A DNA stretch of 64,000 nt from Thermoleophilia bacterium SCSIO 60948. Lineage in GTDB: Bacteria; Actinomycetota; Thermoleophilia; Solirubrobacterales; 70-9. The stretch spans positions 682,001-746,000 of the forward strand of contig CP053031.1 in assembly GCA_021496505.1 (NCBI GenBank), in the 5' to 3' direction. Made by a program: the position numbers and the translations under genes. Position 1 is the first letter of the stretch. Every line of letters starts with the position of its first letter. This document shows positions 32,278 through 51,919 of the stretch, piece by piece. The notes beneath the pieces are model-generated. The model was not told the DNA's origin and made no database searches. It saw only the letters and a list, made by a program, of their open reading frames with translations.

Positions 32278-33225
32278 TCACGCGCTCAGGACCTCCTGCC
32301 GCACATCGACGGGTATCGCGTCCGGGTCCTCCTCGTTGAGGCGGAGCGGATCCGTACCGGCGCCGCGCGGGGTGAGCAGGACCGGGCAGCCCGCAGCCCG
32401 CAGCAACTTGTGGGTCGAGCTCCCCGCGACCGTGCGGCGGATCGGCCCGTAGCCGCGCGAGCCCGCCAGCAGGAGGTCGAAATCGCCGGAGACCTCCGAC
32501 AGCGCGTCACCGACGGATCCGCTCAGGAGCTCCGACCCGGCGGCGACGTGGGGCGGCACCCGTTCGAGTCCGCGATCGAGGATCTCCTGCTTCGACTCGC
32601 GCTCGAGATCGCGATAGTCGGCGGTCGGTAGGGCCGTCCAGCCGATGGCGTAGCCGTAGCGCGCGAACTCCATCACGGTGACGAGGGTCAGTCGTGCGCG
32701 GGTCCGCTGGGCCACCTGGATCCCCGCGCTCAGGGCCGAGTACGACTCCGGGGATCCGTCGAAGGCGACTCCGACGTGCCGGATCTTCGTTCGGGTGTCG
32801 GTGGCCAGGCCGGTCGGGGCGACCGCGATGGCGCACGGCAGATCGGTCAGGAGCGAATCCCCCGTGCTGCCCATCAGCGCATGGCCGATCGCGCAGTGGT
32901 GTGTCGACCCGATGACCATCAGTCCGGCTTGAGTCGAGGCTGCCGCTCGCCGAAGGCCGAGCGCCGGGGACGAGGCGAGCTCGAACCGCGACTCGGCCTC
33001 GATCGGTTCGAACGAGCGGCGCGCCCGCTCGACCGGTTCGGCGAGCCGCTCGCGAAGCAATTCGTCATAGGCGGATTCACCCAGCCACGCACCGGTGAAC
33101 GGGAGGACGACGGTGACGACCGGGCGCATGTCGAAAGCGGCCGCGAGCCGGCGGCCGAGCGCTACCGAGTCCTCGCCCTCGCTCGTCTCCAGGTAGCCGA
33201 CGACCATCGCTCGTTCCGCTCCCAC
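32278..33225 (-). CDS. Tandem-domain universal stress protein (UspA), copy 1
   Basis: A 315-residue protein with two Usp domains. The second ends with the ATP-binding signature GxxGx9GS/T (GSRGYGPIRRTVAGSSTHKLL); the first has GSTHHCAIGHALMGSTGDSL. I use the GTG at 33225, giving an N-terminus (GAERAMVVGY) of the same length as the paralogues; an ATG at 33207 is the alternative. Tandem ATP-binding Usp proteins are prominent in hypoxia and dormancy regulons of mycobacteria. A 19-bp operator-like motif lies 97 bases upstream, shared with the divergent membrane-protein gene. Confidence 0.92.
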   Translation of the reverse strand: MGAERAMVVGYLETSEGEDSVALGRRLAAAFDMRPVVTVVLPFTGAWLGESAYDELLRERLAEPVERARRSFEPIEAESRFELASSPALGLRRAAASTQAGLMVIGSTHHCAIGHALMGSTGDSLLTDLPCAIAVAPTGLATDTRTKIRHVGVAFDGSPESYSALSAGIQVAQRTRARLTLVTVMEFARYGYAIGWTALPTADYRDLERESKQEILDRGLERVPPHVAAGSELLSGSVGDALSEVSGDFDLLLAGSRGYGPIRRTVAGSSTHKLLRAAGCPVLLTPRGAGTDPLRLNEEDPDAIPVDVRQEVLSA

Positions 33226-33321: not shown

Positions 33322-33340
33322 TCCGTAGTCAGGGCGGATG
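33322..33340 (+). promoter_or_regulatory. 19-bp operator-like motif, site 1
   Basis: The sequence TCCGTAGTCAGGGCGGATG lies between the divergent Usp copy 1 (start 97 bases away on the minus strand) and the membrane-protein gene at 33375. It is identical to site 2 at 18 of 19 positions and shares CGTAG-N-C and C-N-G with four other sites in this cluster. It is probably a regulator-binding site for one or both genes. Confidence 0.65.
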
Positions 33341-34979: not shown

Positions 34980-35921
34980 TCAGCTCCCGGCGTGACTTTC
35001 CTGCCGCTCGCGGTCGGCGCCTTCCTCGTATCCGTTCCCGGTGACGTGGAGCGGGTCGGAGCCGGCGCTTCGCGGGGTCACCACGACGTGACAGAGCGCC
35101 TCGCGGAGCAGCCGCCGCGTCGAGCTACCGGCGACCGTGCGGCGAACCCTCCCGTAGCCCCGCGAGCCGACGACCATCAGGTCGTGATCGTGACTCGCCT
35201 GCGCGAGCGCGTAGCCCGGCGCGCCGCTCAGCAGCTCGCTGCTGGCCTCGACGCCGGAAGGGACGCTGGCGAGCGCGTGCTCGAGCGCTTGCCGTTTTGT
35301 CTTGCGTGCCAGGTCGTAGGGGTCGGTTCTCATCGCCTCGGCCCAGCCGTCGGCGTAGCCGTCACCGGTGAAGTCCATTACCCCGACGAGGGTCAGCTTG
35401 GCGTTGCTCCGGCGCGCGAGGTCGATCCCGGCGCGAAGCGCCGACTGCGACTCCGGCGAACCGTCGTAGGCGACGGCGATCCGGTCGAATCGAGACTCCG
35501 TCTTGGCCGAGCCCATCGCTGCGACGGCGACCGCGCACGGGGCATCGGTCAGCAACGACTCCCCGGTGCTCCCGAGCATCGCCTGGCCGAAGGCGCTGCG
35601 ATGGGTCGAGCTGATCACGATCAGCCCCGCGTGCTTTTCGAACGCGAGCTCGCGAAGGCCGAGTGCCGGAGAGGAAGAGACGTCGTAGCGGACCTCGGCG
35701 TCGAGCGGTGCGAGGCGCTCGCGGAGCGCCTCACCCTGCTCGCCCATGTGCTTGCGAACGAGCTCTTGGAGATCGGATTCGCTCAGCCAGGCCCCGGGCC
35801 ACTCGATGACCGTCGCGACGACCGGCTTCATCTCGAGCCGCTCTGCCAGGGCCGCACCCAGGGCGATCGCGTCTTCGCCCCTGTCGGCGGCCCGATATCC
35901 GATGATCAGCGAACGCTGCAC
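34980..35921 (-). CDS. Tandem-domain universal stress protein (UspA), copy 2
   Basis: A 313-residue protein closely related to copy 1 (MQRSLIIGYRAADRGEDAIA). Both domains carry the nucleotide-binding pattern; the second is GSRGYGRVRRTVAGSSTRRLL and the first ISSTHRSAFGQAMLGSTGES. It is transcribed divergently from the ZIP transporter. Operator-like site 2 lies 86 bases upstream of its ATG. Copies 1 and 2 share the stretch DSLLTD/ESLLTD plus PCA(I/V)AVA, indicating a duplication within this cluster. Confidence 0.93.
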   Translation of the reverse strand: MQRSLIIGYRAADRGEDAIALGAALAERLEMKPVVATVIEWPGAWLSESDLQELVRKHMGEQGEALRERLAPLDAEVRYDVSSSPALGLRELAFEKHAGLIVISSTHRSAFGQAMLGSTGESLLTDAPCAVAVAAMGSAKTESRFDRIAVAYDGSPESQSALRAGIDLARRSNAKLTLVGVMDFTGDGYADGWAEAMRTDPYDLARKTKRQALEHALASVPSGVEASSELLSGAPGYALAQASHDHDLMVVGSRGYGRVRRTVAGSSTRRLLREALCHVVVTPRSAGSDPLHVTGNGYEEGADRERQESHAGS

Positions 35922-36006: not shown

Positions 36007-36025
36007 TCCGTAGGCAGGGCGGATG
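36007..36025 (+). promoter_or_regulatory. 19-bp operator-like motif, site 2
   Basis: The sequence TCCGTAGGCAGGGCGGATG differs from site 1 only at position 8. It lies between divergent Usp copy 2 (86 bases) and the ZIP transporter gene at 36142 (117 bases). Outside the 19 bases the two regions diverge, so the match is not simply a duplicated intergenic block. Confidence 0.65.
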
Positions 36026-36988: not shown

Positions 36989-37666
36989 ATGAGCGCTCAC
37001 GAATACAGCGGACTACTCGACGAGCTGCTCCCCGACCCGCAGATTCACACCCGCCAGAGCATCGTCATCGACGCCGATCCTGCGCTGGTCTGGCAGGCCG
37101 TTCTGCACGCGGATCTGGCCTCGTGCGGGCCGGTCAGGTACCTGAGCATGCTCCGCGCCCTTCCGGACCGGTTGTTTCGCCGGCTCCGCGGCCGCCCTGG
37201 ACTGCCGGACGTATCGCGGGCCGACGTGGCGGGCCTGATCGAGGCGGGGTATTGGATCGTGCTCGACGAGGTCGAGGATCGCGAGCTCGCACTCGGTCTC
37301 GTGATGTGGGACAGCCGTGTTGACGAGGTTGGCGGCGCCGCGCGCGCACTCTTCGAGCGCCCAGCGCCGGGCGCCATGCGGGTCGGCTGGTCGTTCGCGA
37401 TCGAGCCGTTCGACGGGGGCGGCTCACTGCTCGTGACCGAGACACGGACCGAGCCCGCCGACGAGGCGGCTCGCCGGCGCTTCGCGACCTACTGGCGCCT
37501 TGTCGGGCCGTTCGCCGATCTGACCCGGCACTTCGTCCTGCGCACGATCGCTGCCGACGCCGAGCGGCGGGCTGCCGCCGCGTCCCGGAAGGGCGCTCGG
37601 AGCGCCGGCGACGGTGAGCCTTTCGGGCAGGGCCACGACTCCCCGTTTCCACTGCGGGCGAGCTGA
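36989..37666 (+). CDS. SRPBCC-fold protein (polyketide cyclase/START-like)
   Basis: A 225-residue protein with the SRPBCC beginning HTRQSIVIDADPALVWQAV and ending in the long helix TYWRLVGPFADLTRHFVLRT. The middle has VLDEVEDRELALGLVMWDS and GSLLVTETRTEPADE. These are hydrophobic-cavity ligand-binding proteins. ATG 36989 has AGGAGG about 8 bases upstream. It precedes Usp copy 3 by 13 bases and is probably in one transcript with it. The ligand is unknown. Confidence 0.78.
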   Translation: MSAHEYSGLLDELLPDPQIHTRQSIVIDADPALVWQAVLHADLASCGPVRYLSMLRALPDRLFRRLRGRPGLPDVSRADVAGLIEAGYWIVLDEVEDRELALGLVMWDSRVDEVGGAARALFERPAPGAMRVGWSFAIEPFDGGGSLLVTETRTEPADEAARRRFATYWRLVGPFADLTRHFVLRTIAADAERRAAAASRKGARSAGDGEPFGQGHDSPFPLRAS

Positions 37667-37679: not shown

Positions 37680-38633
37680 GTGTCCGCGATCCAGCCCACC
37701 TACGTGATCGGCTACGCGCCGTCCGGGCGGGGCGACGATGCGCTCGCGCTCGGGCTGGCGCTCGGTGAGCTCGCCGGCGCGTTTCAGATCGTCGCCACGG
37801 TGGTGCCGTGGCGGGGCGAGCTGATGGACCTCGACCGGCGGCAACGACTCGTGGCCGGCGACACCGCGCGTCTGAGGCTCGAGATCCGTGACCGGCTCAC
37901 CGGCCACGACTGGGAGGCGCGGACGATTCTTCGCGACTCGGCGGCGCAGGCGCTCGCCGAGCTCGCCGAACACGAGAGCGCCCAACTGATCGTGCTGGGC
38001 GGGACACGTCACGGCCGCGGTGGTCGCGCGCTGCTCGGCAGCACCACCGAGTCGGTGCTCGGCGGCGCGCCCTGCGCGGTCGCGGTCGCGCCGCACGGGT
38101 ACGCGCGTAAGCCGGGTCGCGGGCTGGAGAACATCGCGGTCGCCTTTGACGGGTCGGCTGAATCCGAGCGGGCGCTCGAGGCCGCTATCGGCATCGCCGA
38201 ACCGCTTGGCGCCCGGATCACCCTCTGCGCCGTGGCCGGCGCCCCGCGCTACGGCTATCGCGAGGCCTGGGAGACGATCTCGCGGGGGGAGTGCGAGACC
38301 CGCGACGAACGACGCAAGCGGCGGATGCTCGAACGGAGGCTGCGCTGGATGCCCGCGGGGACGCGGGCCGGGGCGCGGGTCGTTGTCGGGGTCACGGGGG
38401 CGACGCTCGCCGATCTCAGCGCCGGGTTCGACCTGATGCTCGTCGGCTCGCGCGGATACGGACCCCTGCGGCGCACGGTCCTCGGCAGCGCGACGCGCCG
38501 CCTTCTCGCCGAGGGTCGTTGCCCGGTCATCGTCACGCCTCGCGGCTCGAGCGGCGAGCCACTGAGGATGCGCGGCGGGGTCCGCGAGAACGGGTCGGTG
38601 CTCGGAGCCGGCCCGGGGCTAGGAGCGGACTGA
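37680..38633 (+). CDS. Tandem-domain universal stress protein (UspA), copy 3
   Basis: A 317-residue protein. Domain 1 has LGGTRHGRGGRALLGSTTES; domain 2 ends GSRGYGPLRRTVLGSATRRL. Both fit the ATP-binding Usp pattern. Start at GTG 37680 (VSAIQPTYVIGYAPSGRGDD), 13 bases after the SRPBCC gene. It is the only Usp in the cluster without its own nearby operator-like motif, consistent with being downstream in an operon. Its 3' end overlaps that of copy 4 (tail to tail) by 15 bases. Confidence 0.92.
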   Translation: MSAIQPTYVIGYAPSGRGDDALALGLALGELAGAFQIVATVVPWRGELMDLDRRQRLVAGDTARLRLEIRDRLTGHDWEARTILRDSAAQALAELAEHESAQLIVLGGTRHGRGGRALLGSTTESVLGGAPCAVAVAPHGYARKPGRGLENIAVAFDGSAESERALEAAIGIAEPLGARITLCAVAGAPRYGYREAWETISRGECETRDERRKRRMLERRLRWMPAGTRAGARVVVGVTGATLADLSAGFDLMLVGSRGYGPLRRTVLGSATRRLLAEGRCPVIVTPRGSSGEPLRMRGGVRENGSVLGAGPGLGAD

Positions 38634-39530
38634 CGCCGCGGCCGTCCTCAGCTCGAGCGGATCGAGCCCGGCGCCGCGCGGCGTGATCAACACCGGGCAG
38701 TGCGCGTTTCGCAGCAGCTTGCGGGAGGTGCTTCCGAGGATCGTGCGCTTGAGGCGCCCGTAGCCGCGCGAGCCGACGAGCATCAGGTCCAGGTCGCGGC
38801 TGTGCTCGGCCAGCACCTCGCCGGGAGGACCCGTGATCACGACCCCCTCGCCGCGGATGGGCGCAGGGACCCGCTCGAGACCGGAACGCATCATTTCCTC
38901 GCGTTCCTCGAGGTCGCGCTCGTGGTACTCAGCCAGCGTGAGCGTGGCATATGCCGTGGCGTGCGACCAGCTCGGAAAGCGGGCCACGACGATCACGGAG
39001 ACCGTGCCTCCGACGAGCCCGGCTACACCGACCGCCGTCTCGAGCGCGGTCCACGCCTCGGCCGAGCCGTCGAAGCCGACGCCGATTCGGCGAATCTCGT
39101 GATCCGAGCTCTCCGTGTAGCGACGCGGAGCGATCGCGACGGCGCAGGGCGCGTCGAGGATCACCGTCTCACCGGTCGCGCCGAGCACGGCGTCGCCGAT
39201 CGGCCCGTGGTGCGCGGAGCCGATCACGAGCAGCCGCGCGGCCAGCGCGGCCGCCTCGGCTTGGATGACACGGCCGGCCGATCCGCCTGAGCGCACGATG
39301 ATGTCGGCGGGCGCGCTCCCGAACTCCGCCACGACGTGTTCGGCGAGCTCTTCGCGCCGCTCGCGCGTGACGATCTCGAGATCGCCGTCGAGGACGAGGC
39401 CGTCGGGCCAGTCGATGACCTCGACGACGGCGCGATCCATCTCGAGCACGTCGGACAGCGACCGCCCGAGGCGAAGGGCATCTTCGCCCTGGGGCCTCGG
39501 CGCGTAGGCGATCAGGAGCGTTCGGTGCAA
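38619..39530 (-). CDS. Tandem-domain universal stress protein (UspA), copy 4
   Basis: A 303-residue protein. Domain 1 has IGSAHHGPIGDAVLGATGET; domain 2 ends GSRGYGRLKRTILGSTSRKLL. It is divergent from the sensor kinase gene at 39724. The shared control region holds two inverted repeats: GCCGACT-CGA-AGTCGGC, 37 bases from its start, and operator-like site 3, 92 bases from its start. This is the copy physically linked to the kinase promoter. Confidence 0.93.
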   Translation of the reverse strand: MHRTLLIAYAPRPQGEDALRLGRSLSDVLEMDRAVVEVIDWPDGLVLDGDLEIVTRERREELAEHVVAEFGSAPADIIVRSGGSAGRVIQAEAAALAARLLVIGSAHHGPIGDAVLGATGETVILDAPCAVAIAPRRYTESSDHEIRRIGVGFDGSAEAWTALETAVGVAGLVGGTVSVIVVARFPSWSHATAYATLTLAEYHERDLEEREEMMRSGLERVPAPIRGEGVVITGPPGEVLAEHSRDLDLMLVGSRGYGRLKRTILGSTSRKLLRNAHCPVLITPRGAGLDPLELRTAAASVRS

Positions 39531-39566
39531 GGCTCGCGGCGTCCGGTTCGGTGGGCGGTCACAGTG

Positions 39567-39583
39567 GCCGACTCGAAGTCGGC
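39567..39583. promoter_or_regulatory. Perfect inverted repeat GCCGACT-CGA-AGTCGGC
   Basis: Seven-base arms separated by three bases lie between Usp copy 4 and the GAF sensor kinase, 37 bases upstream of the Usp start. The GACT/AGTC core recalls the core of the mycobacterial DosR box (GGGACT...AGTCCC), and the 3-base spacer equals that of the CCGTAG-N3-CTACGG motif next to it. It could be an operator or a 5' leader hairpin. Confidence 0.4.
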
Positions 39584-39621
39584 TCTGTCCCGGATCATCG
39601 GCGGGCCGCGGGGGCCGGACC

Positions 39622-39640
39622 TCCGTAGCCGCTACAGACT
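39622..39640 (+). promoter_or_regulatory. 19-bp operator-like motif, site 3
   Basis: The sequence TCCGTAGCCGCTACAGACT contains the near-palindrome CCGTAG-CCG-CTACAG. It lies between divergent Usp copy 4 (92 bases) and the GAF sensor kinase (84 bases to the ATG at 39724), so the kinase gene may be autoregulated. Confidence 0.65.
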
Positions 39641-39723: not shown

Positions 39724-41460
39724 ATGGCGAGCGCACTGAATCAGGCTGAACTCGAGCGCCTGCTGACCGCCGGCCGAGGTCTGGTCTCCCGCCTCGACCT
39801 CGAGTCGGTGCTCCGCGACGTCCTGGGCGCCGCACGCGAGCTCTGCTCGTCGCGCTACGCGGCGCTCGGCGTGCTCGACGCCGAGAAGCTCGAGTTAGAC
39901 CGTTTCATCTTCGAGGGAATCGATGAGGAGACCGTGCGGGCAATCGGCGCGCTGCCGCGCGGCCACGGCATCCTCGGCGAGCTGATCCGCGACCCGAAGC
40001 CGCTGCGGCTCGACGAGATCGGCGCTCACCCGCACTCCTATGGCTTCCCTGCCGGACATCCGCAGATGACGACGTTCCTCGGCGCACCGGTGAAGATCGG
40101 TGACGAGGTCTTCGGCAACATCTACCTGACCGAGAAGCTCGACGGCGAGCCGTTCACCGAGCGTGACGAGGAGATGCTCGGAGTGCTGTCGGAGTTCGCG
40201 GCTGTCGCGATCGAGAACGCGCGCTCGCACGCGGCCCTCACAAGCCGCCATGAGCTCCTCGAGCAGGCCGTGCGGGGCCTTCGGGCGACCGTCGACCTGA
40301 GTCGCCAGATCGACGGGCTGACCCGACGAGACCGGGTGTTCGAGCTCGTGACGAAGCGGGGGCGGGCCCTGCTCGAGGCCGAGATATGCGTCGGCGCGAT
40401 CCGTGTCGGCCCCGAGCTTCAGGTCGCCGACGCGGCGGGCGAGGTGCCCGTCGACATCGGCGGCACCGCGCTCGGTGAGGTCGCCTCCGACGCATCGAGG
40501 GGAGGCTCCGTTGTGCGGCTCGTGGGCGCGGAGGCTGAGGATCTCGGACGCCGGCTGAGAGTGGGGGCGCGGGACGTGCTCATCGCCCCGCTTCGAGCTC
40601 GGGGACGCGAGCTCGGAGCGCTCGTCTTCATCGACCCGGCGGGCACCAACTTCCAGCTCGACCACGAGCTCCTGCTCGAGGCTTTCGCGACGGCAGCGGC
40701 CAACGGGATCGCCGCGAGTCAGGCCTTCGAGGACGAGCGCGCCCGCCTCTCCATGCGCTCGTCCGAACGCGAGCGCCGGCGCTGGGCGCGCGAGCTCCAC
40801 GACGAGACGCTCCAGGAGCTCGGCGCTCTGCGCGTCCTGCTCGACAGCCCCACCGGGGCGGGCGAGTCGCTCGCCGCGCGACTCGATCGAGCCAGCGCTC
40901 AGGTCGAGCGGATCATCTCCGGGCTCCGAGGGCTGGTCACCGAACTGCGGCCCGCCGCGCTCGACGAGCTCGGGATCGAGGCCGCCGTCGAGGCCCTGGT
41001 ACAGAGGACCCGCGAGCGCGGCGGGCTGGCCATCGATCTCGACATCCAGATCGACTCCGCGCAACGTGGCAGGGAGCGCATGGATCCCGAGCTCGAGTCG
41101 GCGATCTACAGGATCGTGCAGGAGGCGCTTTCCAACGCCGTTAAGCACGCGAGCGCGAGCCGGGTCCGGGTCGCCCTCGAGCAGCGTGGCCGCAGCGTGG
41201 TGCTGAACGTCGTAGACGACGGGGTGGGGATCGCGGCCGATGGAGACCCTGAGGGATTCGGACTCGTGGGCATGGCCGAGCGGGTCGCGCTGCTCTCGGG
41301 CGAACTCGAGGTCGGCCCGAACGCGGGCGGCGGAACCCGTGTGCGGGTCCTGCTTCCGCTCGTGCGTCGCGCGAACTCCGCCGGCGACGCCGAGTACGTA
41401 GACGCTACGGACGCCGACGGGGTGCTCGGCTCCGACGCGACCGCGATCGGCCCGGGGTAG
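39724..41460 (+). CDS. DosS/DevS-like GAF-GAF sensor histidine kinase, probable heme gas/redox sensor
   Basis: A soluble 578-residue kinase with GAF-A at about 20-168, GAF-B at about 195-335, HisKA_3 with phospho-acceptor His359 (RRWARELHDETLQELG) and HATPase_c with the N box at 467-475 (EALSNAVKHA). GAF-A contains GAHPHSYGFPAGHPQMTTFLG; from memory this aligns with the DosS segment holding heme ligand His149, making His112 the probable heme ligand. The start is ATG 39724 (or GTG 39721) behind a GAGG; the TTG at 39685 seems too far upstream. It lies among five Usp genes with a NarL-type regulator 2.4 kb away, strongly resembling a DosRS system. O2/NO/CO or redox sensing is inferred. Confidence 0.9.
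   Translation: MASALNQAELERLLTAGRGLVSRLDLESVLRDVLGAARELCSSRYAALGVLDAEKLELDRFIFEGIDEETVRAIGALPRGHGILGELIRDPKPLRLDEIGAHPHSYGFPAGHPQMTTFLGAPVKIGDEVFGNIYLTEKLDGEPFTERDEEMLGVLSEFAAVAIENARSHAALTSRHELLEQAVRGLRATVDLSRQIDGLTRRDRVFELVTKRGRALLEAEICVGAIRVGPELQVADAAGEVPVDIGGTALGEVASDASRGGSVVRLVGAEAEDLGRRLRVGARDVLIAPLRARGRELGALVFIDPAGTNFQLDHELLLEAFATAAANGIAASQAFEDERARLSMRSSERERRRWARELHDETLQELGALRVLLDSPTGAGESLAARLDRASAQVERIISGLRGLVTELRPAALDELGIEAAVEALVQRTRERGGLAIDLDIQIDSAQRGRERMDPELESAIYRIVQEALSNAVKHASASRVRVALEQRGRSVVLNVVDDGVGIAADGDPEGFGLVGMAERVALLSGELEVGPNAGGGTRVRVLLPLVRRANSAGDAEYVDATDADGVLGSDATAIGPG
41395..41413 (+). promoter_or_regulatory. 19-bp operator-like motif, site 4 (inside the kinase 3' end)
   Basis: TACGTAGACGCTACGGACG, with a CGTAG/CTACG inverted repeat, sits in the last codons of the kinase gene, 108 bases before the flavoprotein gene at 41522. 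The kinase tail it encodes (about residues 558-564) is a non-conserved extension, so the DNA may be free to hold a promoter element for the downstream gene. Confidence 0.55.
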
Positions 41461-41521: not shown

Positions 41522-42799
41522 ATGCGAAGTGACCGGTCCGATGCGCCTCAGGTGACGGTCGCCGGCGGCGGCATCGCGGGCGTCGAAGCGGCGCTCGCCG
41601 TCGCCGCGGAGCTCGGAGACGACGCCCGGGTGAGCCTCGTCTCGCCGGACCCCGACCTGACGATCCGGGCGCTCACCGTCGATGAGCCGTTCAGGCCGCG
41701 GCCCGCCGAGCGCCACGAGCTCGAGCCGTTGCTGGCGCCGGCCGGGGTCGCACTCGTTCGCGATTCGGTGACCCGAATCGCCGGCGACGGCAGCGTCGAG
41801 CTCGGCCACGACCGAAGGCTCCACCCCGACCACGTGATCGTCTGCGTCGGCGCCCGGGGCACGCACGCGCTGACCGCCGCGCGGACCTTCTGGGGAGGAG
41901 CCGGTGAGCTACGGATCGACCAGATGCTCCGTCGAGCGAGAGCCGGGGAACGCCGCGGGCTCGGGCTGATCGTCCCTGAGGGCACGACCTGGCCGCTGCC
42001 GATCTACGAGATCGCGCTGCTCGCCAGACGCCGGGCGCGCGAGCTCGGCGGCGCCGACGTTCCGATCACGATCTACACGCCCGAGGACGCGGCGCTGGCG
42101 ATCTTCGGCCCCGTGCCGAGCGCCGCCGTCGCGGAGCTGCTCGGCGCGGCCGGGATCGGTCTCGTGACCGGTGTCCGGGTCGGCCAGGACTCGTGGGGCA
42201 ACCCGTTCGCGGGGCGCCATCGGATCATGGAACGGGCCCTGATCTCGCTCCCGCGTCTCGCCGGTCCCAACATGCCCGACCTGCCGAGCGACCGCGACGG
42301 TTTCACCCGCGTCGACGAGTGGGGTCGCGTGGTCGGGTCCGAGCGGGTCTGGGCCGCCGGGGACGGCACCGACGCCGATGTGAAGCAGGGAGGGATCGCG
42401 GCGCAGGCCGCCGATGCCGCCGCCCACAACGTCGCGGCCGACCTCGTGAGCGGGCTCGAGCCGAGGCGGCCGACCCGCGTGCTGCGCGGCCGGCTGTTCG
42501 GGGCCGATGAGTCGCTGTTTCTACTGCGCGACCTCGACCGACCTGACGATCCCGGACAGGCTTCGTCGGATCCGCTCTGGTGGCCGCCGCAGAAGGTCGG
42601 CGCCGAACATCTCGCGGAGGCGCTGACGAGACAGACGTGGCGGGGCGAGCGCCTCGGCGCCGGAGAGGAGCTCGGCTCGGCGCTGAGCCACGAGTGGCAC
42701 GGCACCCCGCTCACCTCGCCGTGGGTCAGGAGCTCCGTGGCGAGTACCGAGAGCGGACCGGTGAGCGATCCCGATGAGCCGTCGACTCGCCGAACGTAG
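41522..42799 (+). CDS. FAD-dependent oxidoreductase of the NDH-2/sulfide:quinone reductase-like group, copy 1
   Basis: A 425-residue flavoprotein. The FAD motif VTVAGGGIAGVEAALAVAAE is at the N-terminus and the late FAD motif RVWAAGDGTDADVKQGGIAA near 280. It has about one third of the pattern of SQR/NDH-2 proteins but only one obvious cysteine (VIVCVGARG), lacking the redox-active cysteine pair needed for sulfide oxidation. It is therefore not a classical SQR. A quinone or other electron acceptor role is possible. A paralogue lies at 45755-46897. It is preceded by operator-like site 4 and followed by Usp copy 5. Confidence 0.82.
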   Translation: MRSDRSDAPQVTVAGGGIAGVEAALAVAAELGDDARVSLVSPDPDLTIRALTVDEPFRPRPAERHELEPLLAPAGVALVRDSVTRIAGDGSVELGHDRRLHPDHVIVCVGARGTHALTAARTFWGGAGELRIDQMLRRARAGERRGLGLIVPEGTTWPLPIYEIALLARRRARELGGADVPITIYTPEDAALAIFGPVPSAAVAELLGAAGIGLVTGVRVGQDSWGNPFAGRHRIMERALISLPRLAGPNMPDLPSDRDGFTRVDEWGRVVGSERVWAAGDGTDADVKQGGIAAQAADAAAHNVAADLVSGLEPRRPTRVLRGRLFGADESLFLLRDLDRPDDPGQASSDPLWWPPQKVGAEHLAEALTRQTWRGERLGAGEELGSALSHEWHGTPLTSPWVRSSVASTESGPVSDPDEPSTRRT

Positions 42800-42853: not shown

Positions 42854-43768
42854 ATGCAAGAAGTGATCGCAGCTTTCGAGGACACCCCGCAGGGGCGCGA
42901 CGCCCTCGCGCTCGGGGACATGCTCGCGGACGTCGCCGGCGCTGAGCTGAGCGTCGCGTCGATCTACGAGCTCGATCCGCTGCTCCTGCGGGTCGGCGAG
43001 TACCCGGCCGTCCGCAATGAGTACTTCGATCGCGCCTTCGCGGCCGCGCATGAGGCGACCACCAGGCCGTTCACCGAGTTGCCGGTGACCGCGATCAGCC
43101 CGCAGGAGGGACTGCAGCGCGTCGCCATCGAGCGCAAGGCGAGCGTCGTGGTCGTCGGCTCCTCACATCGCAGCCGAGTCGGTCGCCTGCTCGCCGGAAA
43201 CGTCGGCGAGGGGGTCCTGTCGGCGGCTCCGTGCGCCGTCGCCGTCGCTCCGCGGGACTTCGCGCGCGCCGAGCATCCAGCGAAGGCGCGGATCGGCGTC
43301 GCCTGGGACGGACGGCCGGAGGCCCGAGCCGCGCTCGAGTCCGCGATCGAGCTCGCGGCGGCTCGAGAGGGCACGCAGCTCACGATCATGACGATCGCGC
43401 CCACGTACACCGACTTCGAGGGCGAGACCCACGTCTTCGACGAGCTGCGCGAGAAGTACGAGGCCGTCGTAGCCGCCGTGCCCGGGATCGTCCCTGAGCA
43501 CGTCGCCTACACGACCGAGTTGATCGAGCTGCGCGCGCGTTCCTTCGCCGACCAGATCGCCGAGCGAGGTGCCGACCTCGATCTGCTGATCGTCGGCTCG
43601 AGGTCGTTCGGACCGGTGCGGCGAGCTCTCGTGGGGAGCACCTCGCGCCAGCTGTTTCGCTCGGCGCCCTGCCCGGTGATGATCGTCCCGCGGACCGGCG
43701 CCGAGGAGGACGAGGTCCACGCGGACAGCTCGGAGCGCAGGCCCACCGAGTCCGTCCCCGCCGCCTGA
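42854..43768 (+). CDS. Tandem-domain universal stress protein (UspA), copy 5
   Basis: A 304-residue protein (MQEVIAAFEDTPQGRDALAL). Domain 1: GSSHRSRVGRLLAGNVGEGV; domain 2: GSRSFGPVRRALVGSTSRQL, the latter matching the ATP-binding Usp pattern. ATG 42854 has GGAGGGACG upstream. It is the most diverged of the five copies and lies 54 bases downstream of the flavoprotein gene, probably co-transcribed with it. A strong hairpin follows its stop. Confidence 0.93.
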   Translation: MQEVIAAFEDTPQGRDALALGDMLADVAGAELSVASIYELDPLLLRVGEYPAVRNEYFDRAFAAAHEATTRPFTELPVTAISPQEGLQRVAIERKASVVVVGSSHRSRVGRLLAGNVGEGVLSAAPCAVAVAPRDFARAEHPAKARIGVAWDGRPEARAALESAIELAAAREGTQLTIMTIAPTYTDFEGETHVFDELREKYEAVVAAVPGIVPEHVAYTTELIELRARSFADQIAERGADLDLLIVGSRSFGPVRRALVGSTSRQLFRSAPCPVMIVPRTGAEEDEVHADSSERRPTESVPAA

Positions 43769-43883: not shown

Positions 43884-44549
43884 TCAGGGCTTTGCCGCGA
43901 GCCCGTTCTCGATCGCGAAGCGAACGAGCTCGGAGCGACTCGTCGCCCCGAGCTTTCGCTGGATGCTCGCGCGGTGGGTCTCGATCGTCCTGACGCTCAG
44001 CACGAGGCGCTCGGCTATCTCCGGGTTGGTGTAGCCGAGCGCGATCAACCCGAGGACCTCGGTCTCGCGTGACGTCAGTCCTCCGGGCGGCCCGTCCTGG
44101 ACGCTCGCCAGGCGCGCTCCAAGGGCGGGGTGGACGTAGCTGCCTCCGTCGACCACCTGACGGATCGCGTCGACGAGCTCGCGTCCGGCGGCGTCCTTGA
44201 TGACGAAACCGCTCGCGCCCATGTTGAGCGCCTCGCGGGCGAACGAGGGATCGTCGTGCATCGTCAGGGCGACGATCCGCGTCTCGGGTGCCCGCTTCAG
44301 GATCTCGGGGATGGCGGGGATGCTCGACTCGTCGCCGAGGCTCAGGTCCAAGACCAGGACCGTCGGTTTGAGCCCGGCCGTCCGCCGCTTGGCCGACTCG
44401 ATGTCGCCGACCTCGGCGACCACCTCGATGTCGGGCTCGGCGTCGAGGATGAGGGCGACCCCGTCGCGCACGATCTCGTGGTCGTCGGCGATGATCACGG
44501 TCATCGTCTCCGACGAGGGCTCGGCGGGGTGGTTCTCTCCCATGGCCAT
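43884..44549 (-). CDS. NarL/DosR-family response regulator
   Basis: A 221-residue regulator. The receiver has IIADDHEIVRDGVALIL, phospho-acceptor Asp68 (VLVLDLSLGDE) and Lys118 (GFVIKDA). The LuxR-type helix-turn-helix is at about 158-212 (LTSRETEVLGLIALGYTN, VLSVRTIETHRASIQRKL). Possible starts are ATG 44549 (used), 44543 and 44504. It is the last gene of the leftward operon oxidoreductase, DUF4389, flavodoxin, regulator, whose promoter region contains two copies of the 19-bp motif. HisKA_3 kinases pair with NarL-type regulators, so it is the likely partner of the kinase at 39724. Confidence 0.92.
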   Translation of the reverse strand: MAMGENHPAEPSSETMTVIIADDHEIVRDGVALILDAEPDIEVVAEVGDIESAKRRTAGLKPTVLVLDLSLGDESSIPAIPEILKRAPETRIVALTMHDDPSFAREALNMGASGFVIKDAAGRELVDAIRQVVDGGSYVHPALGARLASVQDGPPGGLTSRETEVLGLIALGYTNPEIAERLVLSVRTIETHRASIQRKLGATSRSELVRFAIENGLAAKP

Positions 44550-44560
44550 GACGGACGACA

Positions 44561-45097
44561 CTAGACGGCCCTGGCGATCGAGTCACGACCGCGGTCTCGA
44601 CCCGCGCGGAGCCCGGACGCGATCTCGTCGGCCCAGCGGCGGATCGCCGGCCAGTCACGGAAATCGCCCTCCGGCGCACCTGTCGCGCGCACCATCAGCC
44701 GCTCGATCGGGCCGAGGCGGGCGCGCTCGAGGCGGCCCGCGAAGACGGGCGCGCTGTGCGCGTGCCAGGCCGAGTAGGAGGTCACTTCAGCCTCGGGTTG
44801 GGCGTCGGTGGGATGTCGAGGTTCGCCCAGGGGCCCGAGGCTGAAGATGTGGACGACCCGCGCGCCGTGCTTCTCGGCGGCCAGCAGGTCGAGGATCCTG
44901 CGCGCCGAGCGCTGCCAGCGACCGCCGTAGATCGGGCTGCCGAGGACCACGGGCTCAGATTGCGGGGGCAGCCCGTCGAGCGATCCGGCGTCGACCCGCC
45001 GGGCATCGAGGCCGGCTTCGCGGAGTCGTCTGGCGATCGCCTCGCCGACCTCGGTCGTGCTTCCGTGTCGGCTGGCGGTGACGACGTGGACGGTCAT
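44561..45097 (-). CDS. Flavodoxin-domain protein
   Basis: A 178-residue FMN-binding flavodoxin. The phosphate-binding loop is at the N-terminus (VVTASRHGSTTEVGEAIARR), with the second FMN loop VVLGSPIYGGRWQRSARR. The ending DWPAIRRWADEIASGL is typical of the HemG/flavodoxin_5-like subgroup. ATG 45097 has AAAGGAGAG 6 bases upstream. It lies between the broken DUF4389 gene and the response regulator in one operon. It may serve as a one- or two-electron carrier for the neighbouring flavoprotein, by inference. Confidence 0.88.
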   Translation of the reverse strand: MTVHVVTASRHGSTTEVGEAIARRLREAGLDARRVDAGSLDGLPPQSEPVVLGSPIYGGRWQRSARRILDLLAAEKHGARVVHIFSLGPLGEPRHPTDAQPEAEVTSYSAWHAHSAPVFAGRLERARLGPIERLMVRATGAPEGDFRDWPAIRRWADEIASGLRAGRDRGRDSIARAV

Positions 45098-45126: not shown

Positions 45127-45755
45127 TCACGGGAGCAGCCGGAACGGCGGGTAGACGTCGGTGACGAGGGCGAAGGCGTAGGCGACGACCCGGTTGTGCC
45201 AGCGCAGGACGCCTTCGATGTAGTCGAAGATCGCTCGCGGATAGCGGCCGGTGAACAGGATCGAGACCCACGCCCCGATCGCGGCGAAGACCACGCCCAC
45301 GTAGAGCAGCGCGAGCACGATGTAGTGCGGGATCGCGAGCAGCCACTTGACGAGGGGCATTCCGCGCAGCAGGTCGCGTTCGGCGTCCGGGTAGGCGTAG
45401 TCGAGGCGCACGGCTGGTGCTCCTCGGTCGAGGGGTAGCGGTCGTCCATCAGCAGCAGGTAGACGCCGATCCGATTCGCGAAGCGCTGCAGCTCGAGGTT
45501 CCAGTCGAACCACCAGCGCGGGTAGCGCTTTCGAAACAGCAGCATCAGGAGGACCGGGAGGACCAGGAGCCCGATGCCCCCGAGCGCGATCGTGACCGTG
45601 GTGTCGCTCGCCGAGGTGTAGGTCGTCGAGGTTCCACTGATCGTCGTCATCACGACCGCGATCGGGATCACGGTGAGGATGCGAAAGAAGCTCGTCAGGC
45701 GATTGAGCTTGCGGTCCGGATAATCGACGCTGAACCTGACGGGGTAGTCATCCAT
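45127..45755 (-). pseudogene. DUF4389 membrane protein with a frameshift
   Basis: The N-terminal part (MDDYPVRFSVDYPDRKLNRL, two TM segments, then WWFDWNLELQRFANRIGVYL) runs in one frame from ATG 45755 to about 45414. The C-terminal part (AVRLDYAYPDAERDLLRG, then two more TM segments and RWHNRVVAYAFALVTDVYPP) continues in another frame to 45127. The junction at about 45411-45414 needs one extra base (between CAG and GTG codons) to restore a full DUF4389 protein of about 209 residues. The domain is otherwise intact, so the damage is recent or a sequence error. Its ATG overlaps the oxidoreductase stop. Confidence 0.8.
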
Positions 45756-46897
45756 CACGCTCGCCCGACCCTCTCGCGCGCGGCGCCGAGCCAGTTCGAC
45801 AGGTAGCGGGCGCTGACCTTCTGCTCGCGCTGCGGCGGGTTCGGCTCGGAGCGCCCGTATCCGATCCGCGTCGCGCGGCGTCCCTTCGCGTCGGCGTGCA
45901 GCCACCCCCGCAACACCGGCTCGAACGGGTGCGGGTCGATATCGGCGCCGAGCCGCGAGGCGATGTGCTCGGCGGCCGCGTCGGCCTGCTGGCTGGCGAG
46001 TCCGCCCTGCTTCATCGGCGTGTCCGTCCCGTCGCCGGCCGCGTAGACGTCGCGGAGTCCTTCGACGCGACAGAACTCGTCGACGACGATGAACCCCTGG
46101 GGATCGGCCGGGATTCCCGGTATCCGCGGACCGGTGATCCGCGGCAGCGCGATGACGACACCTGCGTCGAGCGGGATCCCCTGCGGCGCGATCAGCAGGC
46201 GCCCGGTCACGTCTTGGACCACGCGACGCGAGTTCTCTATCGCTATCGAGCGCTCCCCGAGGAGCCTGGCGACCTCTGCGCTCGCCGCGGCGCCGAGCAT
46301 CGAGAGCGGGGCCGGCTCCGATGTGTAGATGGTGATTCCGAGTCGCCTGAGCCCGAGCTCCTCGACGAGCTCGGAGAGCATGAACGCGAGCTCGTAGATA
46401 GGTAACGACCAGCCGACCTCGGGTGGGACGACGAGCGCCAGGCGGCCCGAGTAACTGCGGTTCGCGCTCTCGAGGAGCTCGCGGACCGGGAGGTTCGGGT
46501 GGTCGGGCCAGAAGGTCGCGACGTCGTCGTATGCCGGATGGACCTGCGCGCCGATGCAGACGATGAGGAACTCGTAGCCGAGCCGGAACCCCGACCGCGT
46601 TGTGATCGCGCTCTCGTCGGCCAGCACCTCGGCCATCGCCTCTTGGGCGAAGTCGATGTCGCTGCCGGCCAGCATCGGCTCGAGCGCGTGCCGCTCGAGC
46701 GGCTCGTCGGTGAACGGCGAGGCGACCGCGCCCGGCCTGAACACGAACTCGCGCTCCGGCGACAAGAGGGTCACGCGTGCTCGGCCCGCGGCGAGGTCGC
46801 GGACCGCGAGCGCCGCCTCGACGCCGGCGATCCCGCCACCTGCGACGAGGACGCGAGCGCCCTCCGTCGCTCGGTCTCCTCGTCCAGGCCGACGCAT
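45755..46897 (-). CDS. FAD-dependent oxidoreductase of the NDH-2/SQR-like group, copy 2
   Basis: A 380-residue paralogue of the protein at 41522. FAD motifs: VLVAGGGIAGVEAALAVRDL and DVYAAGDGTDTPMKQGGLAS. Conserved between the two copies are the segments TFWxxxxxLxxxxLL, WxLPIYE and ITIYT. Like copy 1 it lacks a redox cysteine pair (visible cysteines are in FLIVCIGAQ and EFCRVEG only). It is the first gene of the operon that ends with the NarL-type regulator, and two 19-bp motif copies lie 59 and 99 bases upstream of its start. Confidence 0.85.
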   Translation of the reverse strand: MRRPGRGDRATEGARVLVAGGGIAGVEAALAVRDLAAGRARVTLLSPEREFVFRPGAVASPFTDEPLERHALEPMLAGSDIDFAQEAMAEVLADESAITTRSGFRLGYEFLIVCIGAQVHPAYDDVATFWPDHPNLPVRELLESANRSYSGRLALVVPPEVGWSLPIYELAFMLSELVEELGLRRLGITIYTSEPAPLSMLGAAASAEVARLLGERSIAIENSRRVVQDVTGRLLIAPQGIPLDAGVVIALPRITGPRIPGIPADPQGFIVVDEFCRVEGLRDVYAAGDGTDTPMKQGGLASQQADAAAEHIASRLGADIDPHPFEPVLRGWLHADAKGRRATRIGYGRSEPNPPQREQKVSARYLSNWLGAARERVGRA

Positions 46898-46995: not shown

Positions 46996-47014
46996 CCCGT
47001 AGCCGCTACGGGAT
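46996..47014 (+). promoter_or_regulatory. 19-bp operator-like motif, site 6 (best palindrome)
   Basis: CCCGTAGCCGCTACGGGAT contains a full inverted repeat, CCCGTAG-CCG-CTACGGG with 7-base arms and a 3-base spacer. It lies 99 bases upstream of the oxidoreductase/regulator operon and 56 bases upstream of the SDR gene at 47070 on the other strand. It defines the ideal form of the motif. Confidence 0.65.
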
Positions 47015-47913: not shown

Positions 47914-49341
47914 GTGACCGAGGCCGAGGATCGCCACAGCCGCCAGCGCCGCGAAGTCACCGGACTCGGCGCCGCGGTCGCCGTGGTCGCGACCGAGACG
48001 CTGCTCGTCTACCCGCTGCGCGAAGTCGCGCCCGCGGTCTCGCTCGGCGTGGTCTATCTCCTCGGGGTTCTGCTGATCGCCTCGGTCTGGACCCTGCGAC
48101 TCGGCCTGTTCACAGCGCTCCTCAGCGCGCTCGCCTTCAACTTTTTCCACATCGAGCCCACCGGACGGCTGGATGTCGCGAGCGCGCCGAACCTGGTCGC
48201 GCTCGCCGTCTTCTTCGTCGTAGCGCTCGTCGCCGCCGAACTGGCGGGCCGCGCGCGCTTGCGCGAGCGTGAGGCCGACCGCCGCCGAGCCGAGGCCGAC
48301 CTCGCCGCGGAGATGGCGCGGCTGCTTCTGCGCGGGCGCGACCTGCGCGGTGAGCTCTCGGTCGTCGCGCAACGTATCGCCGCGACGCTCGGACTCGGCT
48401 CGGCCGCGATCGAGCTCGGGACCCGCGAGCCGGACGAGCGCCGGCTTGCCTTCCCGTTGCGAGACGGGCCGCGCCTGCTCGCCACGTTGCTCGTCCCGCG
48501 CGCGACGGACGAGGCGACGCTGGCGCGCCTTCAGGAGCGGATCATCCCGTCGCTGGAGGCGCTGCTGGCCGCGGCGCTCGAGCGCGAGGCGCTGCTCGGG
48601 GATCGGGTCGAGACGGTCGCGCTTCGGCGAACCGACACGCTCAAGACCGCGCTGCTTCGAGCCGTCTCGCACGACCTCCGCTCGCCGCTGACCGCGATCC
48701 GCACCGCTGCCGAGCCGCTGCTGTCGGGCCGGTTGCCAGCCGCCGAGCGCGAGGAGCTCGCATCGATAGTCATCGCCGAGAGCGAGCGCCTGGCGCGGAT
48801 GATCGACGATCTGCTCGATCTGTCGCGGATCGAGGCGGGAGCGGCGCAGGCCTCACCCGTCGAGTGCGATCTAGCCGAGGTCCTCGAAGCAGCCGCTGAG
48901 GAGCTCGATCCGGGTGGCGAGAGGCTCCGGCTCCAGCTCCCGGCGGACCTCCCCGCCCTCGAGGCCGACCCGGCTCAGCTCGAGCGCGCCTTCGCGAACA
49001 TCCTCGCCAACTCGGTCCGCCACTCCGGGGGACACCCGGTGATGGTTCGCGCGCAGGCGCTCCACGACCGGCTCGTCACGCGCGTCGTCGATCGCGGACC
49101 GGGCATCCCGGCCGCTCAGCGCGAGCGGATCTTCGAGCCGTTCTACCGCGGCGAGGACACCGCGGGCGGGCCCCGCGGCTCCGGGCTGGGACTTGCGATC
49201 GCGCGCGGCTTCGTGACCGCGAACGACGGCTCGATCGGCGTCGAGTCGCTTCCGGGCCAGGGGACGACGTTCGTGGTCGAACTGCCGCTCCCGAGCGGCG
49301 GGCGCGGGTCGCTGCCGGCCGTCGCGGAGCGCAGCGCTTGA
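47914..49341 (+). CDS. kdpD: KdpD C-terminal half: DUF4118 membrane domain plus histidine kinase
   Basis: A 475-residue protein equal to the C-terminal half of KdpD. It has four closely spaced TM segments at about 17-110 (DUF4118 domain, with LGVVYLLGVLLIAS and SALAFNFFHIEPTG), a GAF-like region at about 130-225, HisKA with phospho-acceptor His253 (LLRAVSHDLRSPLTAIRT) and HATPase (VDRGPGIPAAQRERIFEPF, GSGLGLAIARGF). It lacks the N-terminal KdpD and Usp domains, which are encoded separately at 54645. Start at GTG 47914. Its stop overlaps the kdpE start. It controls K+ transport genes through KdpE. Confidence 0.92.
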   Translation: MTEAEDRHSRQRREVTGLGAAVAVVATETLLVYPLREVAPAVSLGVVYLLGVLLIASVWTLRLGLFTALLSALAFNFFHIEPTGRLDVASAPNLVALAVFFVVALVAAELAGRARLREREADRRRAEADLAAEMARLLLRGRDLRGELSVVAQRIAATLGLGSAAIELGTREPDERRLAFPLRDGPRLLATLLVPRATDEATLARLQERIIPSLEALLAAALEREALLGDRVETVALRRTDTLKTALLRAVSHDLRSPLTAIRTAAEPLLSGRLPAAEREELASIVIAESERLARMIDDLLDLSRIEAGAAQASPVECDLAEVLEAAAEELDPGGERLRLQLPADLPALEADPAQLERAFANILANSVRHSGGHPVMVRAQALHDRLVTRVVDRGPGIPAAQRERIFEPFYRGEDTAGGPRGSGLGLAIARGFVTANDGSIGVESLPGQGTTFVVELPLPSGGRGSLPAVAERSA

Positions 49342-50021
49342 GCGCGGGCCGCGTCCTCATCGTCGACGACGAGGCGCAGATCCTGCGAGCGCTGCGGGTG
49401 GTCCTGCGCGAGGCTGGCTACGAGGTCGTCCCGGCCGCGACGGTCTCCGAGGCGCTCGACGCCGCCTCGCTCGGCCGCATCGATGCGGCGATCGTCGACC
49501 TGGTCCTGCCCGACGGGGACGGGATCGATCTGACGCGAAGGATCCGCGAGTGGTCGGCCATGGCGATCCTGGTCTTGTCGGCGGTCGGCGAGGAGGAGCA
49601 GAAGGTGCGCGCTCTCGAGGCCGGCGCCGACGACTACGTCACGAAGCCGTTCGGCCCTCGCGAGCTGGTCGCCAGGCTCGCCGCGGCGATGCGTCGCTCA
49701 GCCCCTGAGCCCGATGAGCCCGTCCTGCGGGCCGATGAGCTCGAGCTGGATCTCGCGGCGCGCGCGGTTCGGCTCGGCGGTGAGGAGGTGCACCTGACGC
49801 CGACGGAGTTCGGCCTGCTCGCCGAGTTGATGCGAAACCGTGGTCGCCTGCTCACGCATGCGACGCTGCTTCGTGCCGTCTGGGGACCGGCCTACGCCGA
49901 GGACACGGCGACCCTTCGCACCCACATGGCGAACCTGCGTCGCAAGGTCGAGCCTGAGGGCAGACCACGCCGGATCCGCACCGAGGCGCGCGTCGGCTAT
50001 CGCTTCGTCGCCGAGCCTTGA
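49338..50021 (+). CDS. kdpE: KdpE-like response regulator
   Basis: A 227-residue OmpR-family regulator. Receiver: VLIVDDEAQILRALRVVL, phospho-acceptor Asp54 (AAIVDLVLPDGDGID), Lys in DDYVTKPFGPREL. Winged helix: HLTPTEFGLLAELMRNRGRL, TLRTHMANLRRKVEPEG, RTEARVGYRF. The TTG start at 49338 overlaps the kinase stop by 4 bases. It is 68 bases ahead of kdpF and should activate the kdp operon when K+ is low. Confidence 0.92.
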   Translation: MSAGRVLIVDDEAQILRALRVVLREAGYEVVPAATVSEALDAASLGRIDAAIVDLVLPDGDGIDLTRRIREWSAMAILVLSAVGEEEQKVRALEAGADDYVTKPFGPRELVARLAAAMRRSAPEPDEPVLRADELELDLAARAVRLGGEEVHLTPTEFGLLAELMRNRGRLLTHATLLRAVWGPAYAEDTATLRTHMANLRRKVEPEGRPRRIRTEARVGYRFVAEP

Positions 50022-50089
50022 CGCTTTCTTCACGCCTCGAGGCCAGAACCTGAGAGGCGCTTGACGATCCGGGGCCGAGGCTTCGAGTC

Positions 50090-50179
50090 GTGCCCCTGAT
50101 CGACTGGATCGCGCTCGGCGTCGGCGTCTGCCTCGCCGCCTATCTCGTCTTAGCCCTGCTTCGCGCCGAGGAGCTCTGA
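50090..50179 (+). CDS. kdpF: KdpF, small subunit of the K+-transporting ATPase
   Basis: A 29-residue single-TM peptide starting at GTG 50090: VPLIDWIALGVGVCLAAYLV, then LALLRAEEL and TGA at 50177-50179. The hydrophobic helix ending LxxALLRxE is typical of KdpF, which stabilises the KdpABC complex. It is 9 bases upstream of kdpA. Confidence 0.85.
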   Translation: MPLIDWIALGVGVCLAAYLVLALLRAEEL

Positions 50180-50188
50180 GCGCTCGCC

Positions 50189-51919
50189 GTGAACGTCCAG
50201 GGCTGGCTCGAGATCGCCTTCTTCGTCGCCTGCCTGACCGCGATCGTGCCGCTTCTCGGCGGCTACCTCGCGCGCGTTCTCCAGGGTGAGCCGATCGCCC
50301 TGGACCGCGTCCTGGGCCCCGTCGAGCGCGGCCTGCTGCGCTCGTTCGGGGCCCGTCCCGAGCGCCAGCAGGACTGGAAGGGCTACGCGCTCGCCGCGCT
50401 CGCGTTCAACTTCGCGGGCTTCCTGGTGTTGCTGGCGATCCTGCGCACGCAGTCGATCCACCCCTGGAACCCGCTCGGGCTCGGTTCGATGCCGTGGGAC
50501 GTGAGCTTCAACACCGCGGCGTCGTTCGTCTCGAACACGAACTGGCAGTTCTACGGCGGCGAGACTTCGCTGTCGTTCTTCAGCCAGATGGCCGGGATCA
50601 CGGTCCAGAACTTCCTCTCCGCGGCGACCGGGATCGCGGTCGTAGCCGCGGTTATCCGAGGCATCGCCGCGCGCGGCACGGACCGGCTGGGCAACTTCTG
50701 GGTCGACGTCACGCGGGTGACGCTCTACGTCCTGCTCCCGATCTCGATCGTCGGCGCGCTGTTCCTCGTCAGTCAGGGAGCGATCCAGGACCTCTCCGGG
50801 CCGCTGACGAGCGCGGGCGTCGCGGGTGGGCGCGAGACGCTCGTACTCGGCCCGGCGGCCTCGCAGGAGCTGATCAAGATGCTCGGCACCAACGGCGGAG
50901 GGTTCTTCAACGTCAACGCCGCGATGCCGTTCTCGAACCCGACGGCGCTGACGAACTTCGTCCTGATGTTGGTGATCCTCGCGATCCCGGCGGCGCTCAC
51001 CTACACCTATGGGCGCATGGTCGGCAGCCGCCGACAGGGCTGGGCGCTCTACGCGGCGATGCTCGTCATGTTCGTCGCCGCGACGGCGATCGTCTACGCG
51101 GCCGAGTCGCACCCGACGCCGGCGATGGCGGCGGCCGGGCTCGACGGCGCGAACATGGAGGGCAAGGAGGTCCGCTTCGGGATCGGCTCCTCGTCGCTCT
51201 TCTCGGCGATCACCACGGTCGCCTCGTGCGGTGCGGTCAACTCGGCGATGGAGGCGCTCAGCGGCCTCGGGGGCGCGATCCCGATGGCGAACATGATGAC
51301 CGGCGAGGTCATCTTCGGTGGCGTCGGGTCGGGCCTCTACGGGATGCTGCTCTTCGTCGTGCTCGCCGTCTTCCTGGCCGGCCTGATGGTCGGTCGCACG
51401 CCCGAGTACCTCGGCAAGAAGATCGAGGCCCGGGAGATCAAGCTCGTAGCCGTCGGGACCCTCGTCGTGCCGCTCGTCGTCCTGCTGACCACGGCGCTGG
51501 CGATCGGCACGCAGTGGGGCGCGCCGTCGATCTACGACTCGGGCCCGCAGGGCTTCTCGGAGACCCTCTACGCCTACACCTCGCAGGCCAACAACAACGG
51601 ATCCGCCTTCGCGGGCTACACCGGGTTCGTCCAGCCGAACGGCACGAACGAAGGCGCGTACGGGATCACGTTCGCCAACCTGCTCGGCGGGCTGACGATG
51701 CTGCTCGGGCGCTTCGGCCCGATGCTGATCGCGCTCGGCTTCGCCGGCGCTCTGGCGACGAAGCGGGTCGCGCCGCCGTCCGTCGGAACGATGCGCACCG
51801 ACTCGCCGGTGTTCGGCGGACTGCTGATCGCAGTGATCCTGCTCGTCGCGCTACTCGTCTTCGTGCCCGCGTTGCTGCTCGGGCCGATCGTCCAGGCGCT
51901 CGGGGACGGGCTCTACTGA
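50189..51919 (+). CDS. kdpA: KdpA, K+-binding and translocating subunit
   Basis: A 576-residue membrane protein with about ten TM segments, related to K+ channels. Selectivity-filter type loops are visible: TAASFVSNTNWQFYGGE, MLGTNGGGFFNVNAAMPFSN, TTVASCGAVNSAM and ANNNGSAFAGYTG. Start at GTG 50189. The length matches the usual 550-600 residues. It stands first of the main structural genes, followed directly by kdpC rather than kdpB. Confidence 0.96.
   Translation: MNVQGWLEIAFFVACLTAIVPLLGGYLARVLQGEPIALDRVLGPVERGLLRSFGARPERQQDWKGYALAALAFNFAGFLVLLAILRTQSIHPWNPLGLGSMPWDVSFNTAASFVSNTNWQFYGGETSLSFFSQMAGITVQNFLSAATGIAVVAAVIRGIAARGTDRLGNFWVDVTRVTLYVLLPISIVGALFLVSQGAIQDLSGPLTSAGVAGGRETLVLGPAASQELIKMLGTNGGGFFNVNAAMPFSNPTALTNFVLMLVILAIPAALTYTYGRMVGSRRQGWALYAAMLVMFVAATAIVYAAESHPTPAMAAAGLDGANMEGKEVRFGIGSSSLFSAITTVASCGAVNSAMEALSGLGGAIPMANMMTGEVIFGGVGSGLYGMLLFVVLAVFLAGLMVGRTPEYLGKKIEAREIKLVAVGTLVVPLVVLLTTALAIGTQWGAPSIYDSGPQGFSETLYAYTSQANNNGSAFAGYTGFVQPNGTNEGAYGITFANLLGGLTMLLGRFGPMLIALGFAGALATKRVAPPSVGTMRTDSPVFGGLLIAVILLVALLVFVPALLLGPIVQALGDGLY

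Follow-up and report, generated by a model that had tools for sequence, protein, structure and literature searches.

A sensor histidine kinase with the domain order of mycobacterial DosS is encoded in the genome of Thermoleophilia bacterium SCSIO 60948 (3.42 Mb, one contig). Its presence raises the question of whether a gas is sensed through heme in this lineage and, if so, which genes would respond. The window analyzed here is a stretch of 64,000 nucleotides corresponding to positions 682001-746000 of that contig (G000:C1), and its relevant features are collected in Table 1 (G, C, and L denote genomes, contigs, and loci). As detailed below, the reading that we consider probable is that a DosT-like heme gas-sensor kinase, a local DosR-like regulator, and the operator TCCGTAG-N3-CTACGGA constitute a hypoxia/energy-stress regulon.

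Table 1. Features of the window (USP, universal stress protein; positions are those of the window)
Feature	Position	Strand	Remark
USP	32278..33207	-	
Half-site variant operator TCCGTAGTCAGGGCGGA	33322..33338		Centre 123 bp upstream of a USP
USP	34980..35921	-	
Half-site variant operator TCCGTAGGCAGGGCGGA	36007..36023		Centre 94 bp upstream of a USP
USP	37680..38633	+	
USP	38619..39530	-	Divergent from kinase; best solved relatives 2jax (TB31.7) and 3cis
Operator TCCGTAGCCGCTACAGA	39622..39638		Between USP (-) and kinase (+); centre 100 / 94 bp from their starts
Dos-type sensor histidine kinase, 578 aa	39724..41460	+	GAF-A, GAF-B, HisKA_3, HATPase_c
GAF-A, predicted heme domain	39796..40230	+	Residues 25-169
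Gly49 codon	39868..39870	+	Position of DosT Gly85; Glu87 in DosS
His112 codon (CAT)	40057..40059	+	Predicted proximal heme ligand; DosS His149/DosT His147
Tyr134 codon	40123..40125	+	Predicted distal ligand-sensing Tyr; DosS Tyr171/DosT Tyr169
Candidate operator TACGTAGACGCTACGGA	41395..41411		Kinase 3' end; centre 119 bp upstream of FADox1; outside training set
FADox1, FAD/pyridine-nucleotide oxidoreductase	41522..42799	+	Downstream of kinase, same strand
Weak candidate operator TCCGTGGCGAGTACCGA	42734..42750		Centre 112 bp upstream of a USP; outside training set
USP	42854..43768	+	Downstream of kinase, same strand
NarL/LuxR-type response regulator, predicted partner	43884..44561	-	Best solved relative DevR/DosR 3c3w
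Flavodoxin-domain protein	44561..45097	-	Directly upstream of regulator
DUF4389 protein	45127..45411	-	Fragment as called
FADox2, SQR-like FAD oxidoreductase	45755..46897	-	Same strand as regulator
Operator CCCGTAGCCGCTACGGG	46996..47012		Centre 107 bp upstream of FADox2

The kinase and its first GAF domain

The kinase is encoded by an open frame starting with ATG at 39724, and an in-frame TTG at 39685 would extend the product to 591 residues. The DosS-like domain order proposed in an earlier sequence-only reading of this DNA was recovered with Pfam, which assigned GAF to residues 25-163, GAF_3 to residues 265-330 (a weak match), HisKA_3 to residues 350-413, and HATPase_c to residues 458-546. 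The length of the protein equals that of mycobacterial DosS, 578 residues. Of the NCBIfam kinase equivalogs MctS, UhpB, LiaS, NarQ/X, and MadS, none was assigned (best score 120 bits versus cut-offs of 408-700).

When GAF-A was compared with PDB sequences by phmmer, DosT (2vzw, E 3e-45) and DosS (2w3d/2y8h/4ynr, E ~1e-44) were the best matches, and the next GAF domain (5w10, E 5.5e-8) followed far behind. Identity to DosS/DosT is ~51-54%. The alignment is free of gaps from residue 58 through residue 168, its sole gap being one residue near residues 53-57 of the kinase. The segment GAHPHSYGFPAGHPQMTTFLG, on which the prediction of a heme ligand had been based, is present at residues 100-120, and His112 indeed aligns ungapped on DosS His149 and DosT His147 (DosS numbering anchored on His149/Tyr171/Glu87; PMC4082495). 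The motif flanking the ligand histidine, HPxMxxFLG...NxYLTEK, is retained. Phe61 and Leu77 correspond to Phe98 and Leu114 of DosS, residues that form a gas gate according to modeling (PMC9062744).

A fold comparison led to the same relatives. Residues 2-173 were submitted to AlphaFold2 together with three homologues; the best model had a pLDDT of 84.2 and a pTM of 0.82, and the remaining four of the five had a pLDDT of 59 or less. Foldseek placed GAF-A chains of DosS/DosT on top (E 4.6e-19). Superposition of the model on these chains with VIA-align gave Z 23.8-24.6 and rmsd 1.4-2.3 A over 141-148 residues, compared with Z 20.1 for the closest unrelated GAF, a closeness to DosS that is partly expected because the alignment behind the model took in mycobacterial homologues.

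Taken together, these matches suggest that the protein is probably a heme-based sensor of O2, NO, or CO, a type of kinase by which dormancy is triggered in the tuberculosis bacterium. It would be a soluble gas sensor of the DosS/DosT/OsdK type, in which GAF-A is predicted to bind heme b through His112 and Tyr134 would read the distal ligand. The pocket is DosT-like rather than DosS-like, as evident from Asn132 and Gly49. The distal network Glu87-His89 of the DosS redox subtype is absent, Gly49 and Leu51 occupying its positions; because Leu51 replaces DosS His89, the Tyr-Glu-His network of DosS is broken. Gly49 would provide DosT-like open access to the heme, so that the O2-bound kinase would be off and would be switched on by loss of O2 (hypoxia) or by binding of NO or CO.

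The sequence-only reading had left the choice between O2/NO/CO sensing and redox sensing. Gas sensing is now favored, and DosS-type redox sensing has become the less likely part of that proposal, because Gly49 is DosT-like. A related possibility is that the heme reports the redox state of the quinone pool or of flavoproteins, or H2S, with Fe3+ as the off state and Fe2+ as the on state. Genes for SQR-like flavoproteins are repeatedly found next to that of the kinase and have the operator described below, and H2S binds to and activates ferric DosS (PMC9062744). However, redox reading by DosS needs Glu87, for which the present kinase has Gly as in DosT, and DosT keeps a stable oxy complex (PMC4082495) and does not bind H2S (PMC9062744). 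Moreover, FADox2 is only weakly similar to SQR (best E 1.9e-10), and FADox1 had no match among solved structures. We therefore regard a redox or sulfide sensor as quite improbable.

Distribution of the heme-type GAF-A domain

Of 396 genomes sampled from the phylum, 149 encode a heme-type GAF-A (E <= 1e-20). The lineage had been described as distant from mycobacteria; it does belong to another class, albeit of the same phylum, and the presence of the domain in it is unsurprising given this wide occurrence. The ligand histidine was kept in all aligned phylum homologues, both the best-scoring (31/31) and the lower-scoring (20/20), and the distal tyrosine in 31/31 and 17/20, respectively; in the three lower-scoring homologues with phenylalanine at the tyrosine position, the histidine was still there. 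Glycine occupied the position of DosS Glu87 in 29/31 best-scoring and 20/20 lower-scoring homologues. Within the order, every full-length relative retained His, Tyr, and Gly. Thus, the histidine match does not arise by chance. Judged from these alignments, the ligand histidine is characteristic of the subfamily as a whole and Glu87 is exceptional, which suggests that the DosT-like glycine is the usual state across the family. The DosS-specific pair Glu87/His89 was carried by a genus among the same-phylum genomes (L216). To our knowledge, heme binding has been demonstrated for few members of the subfamily, and no Dos-type system of Thermoleophilia turned up in a literature search.

The invariance of the histidine could have another structural cause. 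It might be kept for the fold of a heme-free GAF-A that senses a different small molecule or just dimerizes, the system then answering another stress. Persistence of the histidine where the distal tyrosine is replaced by phenylalanine would fit such a domain, as would paralogues that have a degenerate GAF-A and are still paired with a regulator. On the other hand, not only the histidine but also the distal tyrosine, the equivalent of the Phe98/Leu114 gate, and the flanking motif are all retained, and genes for nitrate respiration and oxidase are among those bearing the operator. A heme-free GAF-A is accordingly given a very low probability, and the heme-based gas sensor is the reading followed below.

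One paralogue of 540 residues is encoded in the host genome itself (L121:4992-6614). Its GAF-A is degenerate and has lost the histidine, making it a natural heme-less comparison. This kinase gene is convergent with its own DosR-like regulator gene (L121:4992-7291, G000:C1:236.9-239.3 kb), and the TCCGTAG operator was not found at that locus. Kinases with a heme-type GAF-A also occur in another family of the order (L165, G042:C27; L142, G051:C14). That of L165 has 404 residues and a single GAF domain, and an operator-like site lies directly upstream of both kinase genes.

The partner regulator, its neighborhood, and a recurrent palindrome

The predicted partner is encoded 2.4 kb downstream of the kinase on the opposite strand. 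Among solved structures, it matched DevR/DosR best (3c3w, E 2.7e-33), followed by VraR (7e-29). The pairing is conserved: in most of 20 neighborhoods from relatives, in which genes were called by a simple codon-usage caller and no annotation was used, the kinase is near a DosR-like regulator, usually tail to tail, and USP and FADox2 genes often lie alongside the pair. In the window, five USPs are encoded between 32 and 47 kb, together with FADox1, the SQR-like FADox2, a flavodoxin, and a DUF4389 protein. The solved relative TB31.7 of the divergent USP is Rv2623, a USP of the DosR regulon. A protein of 225 residues encoded between a ZIP transporter and a USP (36989-37666) had no Pfam match and appears SRPBCC-like by eye. 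Further along, at 47914-55730, another kinase/regulator pair is followed by an apparent kdp region, in which a KdpD domain protein was confirmed at 54645-55727.

A common motif, the palindrome TCCGTAG-N3-CTACGGA, occurs in four divergent promoter regions of the window, two of its sites having good half-sites only. A first palindrome, GGCCGACTCGAAGTCGGCTC at 39566-39585, was dropped because it did not recur. Neither the DosR box GGGACTWWWGTCCC nor the OsdR box was found in promoters of the cluster, and a literature search did not find the palindrome as a string. The recognition helix of the regulator differs from that of DosR.

A symmetrised matrix was built only from the four window sites and scanned over the neighborhoods of relatives. 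At a threshold of at least 12 bits, 16 noncoding matches and 1 coding match were obtained, although only 14% of the scanned DNA was noncoding; 200 column-permuted matrices yielded 1.4 noncoding matches on average and at most 9. The top matches are located upstream of regulator, FADox, and USP genes. The motif is therefore conserved and non-random.

Whole genomes were searched with TCSGTAG-N3-CTACSGA, allowing at most one mismatch, and the reversed pattern served as control. In the nearest genera with the kinase (g1, g2, g4, g5; seven genomes), there were 22 matches versus 5 for the control, whereas the other 54 genomes contained 41 versus 98 (Fisher p 6e-7, genomes being non-independent and the grouping having been picked after the counts were seen). 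No excess of the palindrome over the control was present in the other 16 kinase-bearing genomes (9 versus 28). An excess is seen only in the nearest genera with the kinase. Counting the one match per genome that the search returned, the palindrome lay directly upstream of USP, FADox, kinase, or regulator genes at 9/30 loci versus 0/30 for the control (Fisher p 0.002). A 16-base pattern derived from the four sites gave no genome-wide excess with one mismatch (51 versus 74 in reverse), and thus only the palindromic form was relied on.

The kinase gene or the regulator gene is itself preceded by the motif in G000, G005, G020, G040, G042, G044, and G051. Single matches, picked post hoc and illustrative, precede narK/narG in G002, PEP synthase and NuoEF-like genes, COX2/COX1 (oxidase) genes, and a PRTase-hydrolase gene; in G014, the motif lies ~0.55 kb upstream of narG (TIGR01580 above cut-off) and thus far from the start. 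The gene at L151 had been considered as a pyruvate phosphate dikinase, an assignment that was rejected as NCBIfam identified PEP synthase. At L119 (G020:C88:6000-15000), an erythromycin esterase gene adjoins the PRTase-hydrolase gene with the upstream operator, a pairing that is reminiscent of DosR-regulon genes of Mycobacterium tuberculosis.

We propose that phosphate would pass from the kinase to the DosR-like regulator, which may bind TCCGTAG-N3-CTACGGA in front of the kinase, USP, and SQR-like flavoprotein genes, with ~94-125 bp between the centre of the site and the start codon. Stress, flavoprotein, and anaerobic-respiration genes would be activated, and the system would be autoregulated. 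The palindrome might instead belong to a different transcription factor, the kinase-regulator pair merely residing among the genes that carry it. The motif also occurs in front of a PAS-kinase/regulator pair, and the recognition helix is nearly identical in the paralogous regulator of the host, so that the motif alone has no power to single out one regulator. Its position upstream of kinase or regulator genes in several genomes is nevertheless what autoregulation predicts, and it is mainly in the closest genera with the kinase that the motif exceeds its control. Another owner of the motif is therefore unlikely in our view, and the local DosR-like regulator is preferred. Related regulators may share the palindrome. 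At L158 (G044:C1:928000-935500), an exact operator copy, TCGGTAGAAACTACGGA, precedes the gene for a related regulator paired with the PAS-type kinase. Has a GAF kinase here been exchanged for a PAS-type kinase under the same operator?

Comparison with known Dos-type systems

The kinase shares with DosT/DosS (DevS) of M. tuberculosis the order of its domains, the fold of GAF-A (Z 24) at the identity given above, the proximal histidine, and the distal tyrosine, and in both cases a DosR-like partner and USP-rich surroundings are found. It differs from DosS, but not from DosT, in having Gly at position 87, and has Leu where DosS has His89 and DosT has Arg87. In M. tuberculosis, the genes form a USP-dosR-dosS operon, whereas the present kinase and regulator genes are convergent with a flavoprotein and a USP gene between them. 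The operator is unrelated to the DosR box. In the recognition helix, the regulator has Glu/Thr in place of Lys182/Asn183 of DosR.

OsdK/OsdR of Streptomyces coelicolor is likewise a Dos-type kinase with its regulator outside mycobacteria (PMC5069765). OsdR keeps 11 of 13 DNA-binding residues of DevR and recognizes AGGGCCGATCGGCCCT (PMC5069765); the present regulator, with its two replacements and the putative site TCCGTAG-N3-CTACGGA, departs from OsdR as well as from DosR. USPs, nitrate reductase, and a dikinase are among the targets of OsdR, and the published DosR and OsdR regulons both include USP, nitrate reductase, and dikinase genes (PMC5069765). PolS/PolR of Microlunatus phosphovorus also consists of a Dos-like tandem-GAF kinase and a DevR-like regulator and was proposed to answer dissolved oxygen (PMC6754071). 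Unlike the system described here, it controls polyphosphate and phosphate transport genes, and PolR is 76% identical to DevR (PMC6754071).

These comparisons lead us to lean, by a narrow degree, toward a Dos-type heme gas-sensing regulon in another class of Actinomycetota, one that has retained its content but changed its DNA code to an operator without relation to either the DosR or the OsdR box. With the same slight preference, and as part of the same reading, overlapping functions would have come under the rewritten operator: USPs, nitrate respiration, PEP synthase, a PRTase-hydrolase beside erythromycin esterase, and flavoproteins.

The heme sensor itself is of a widespread type and its presence is ordinary; what is new is its context, and the point of interest would be the putative regulon. 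A defined operator together with a list of genes would make the hypoxia/dormancy response traceable in Actinomycetota beyond mycobacteria and streptomycetes. Comparison with the DosR regulon of M. tuberculosis may then reveal the ancestral targets and the way in which the DNA code of a regulon changes.
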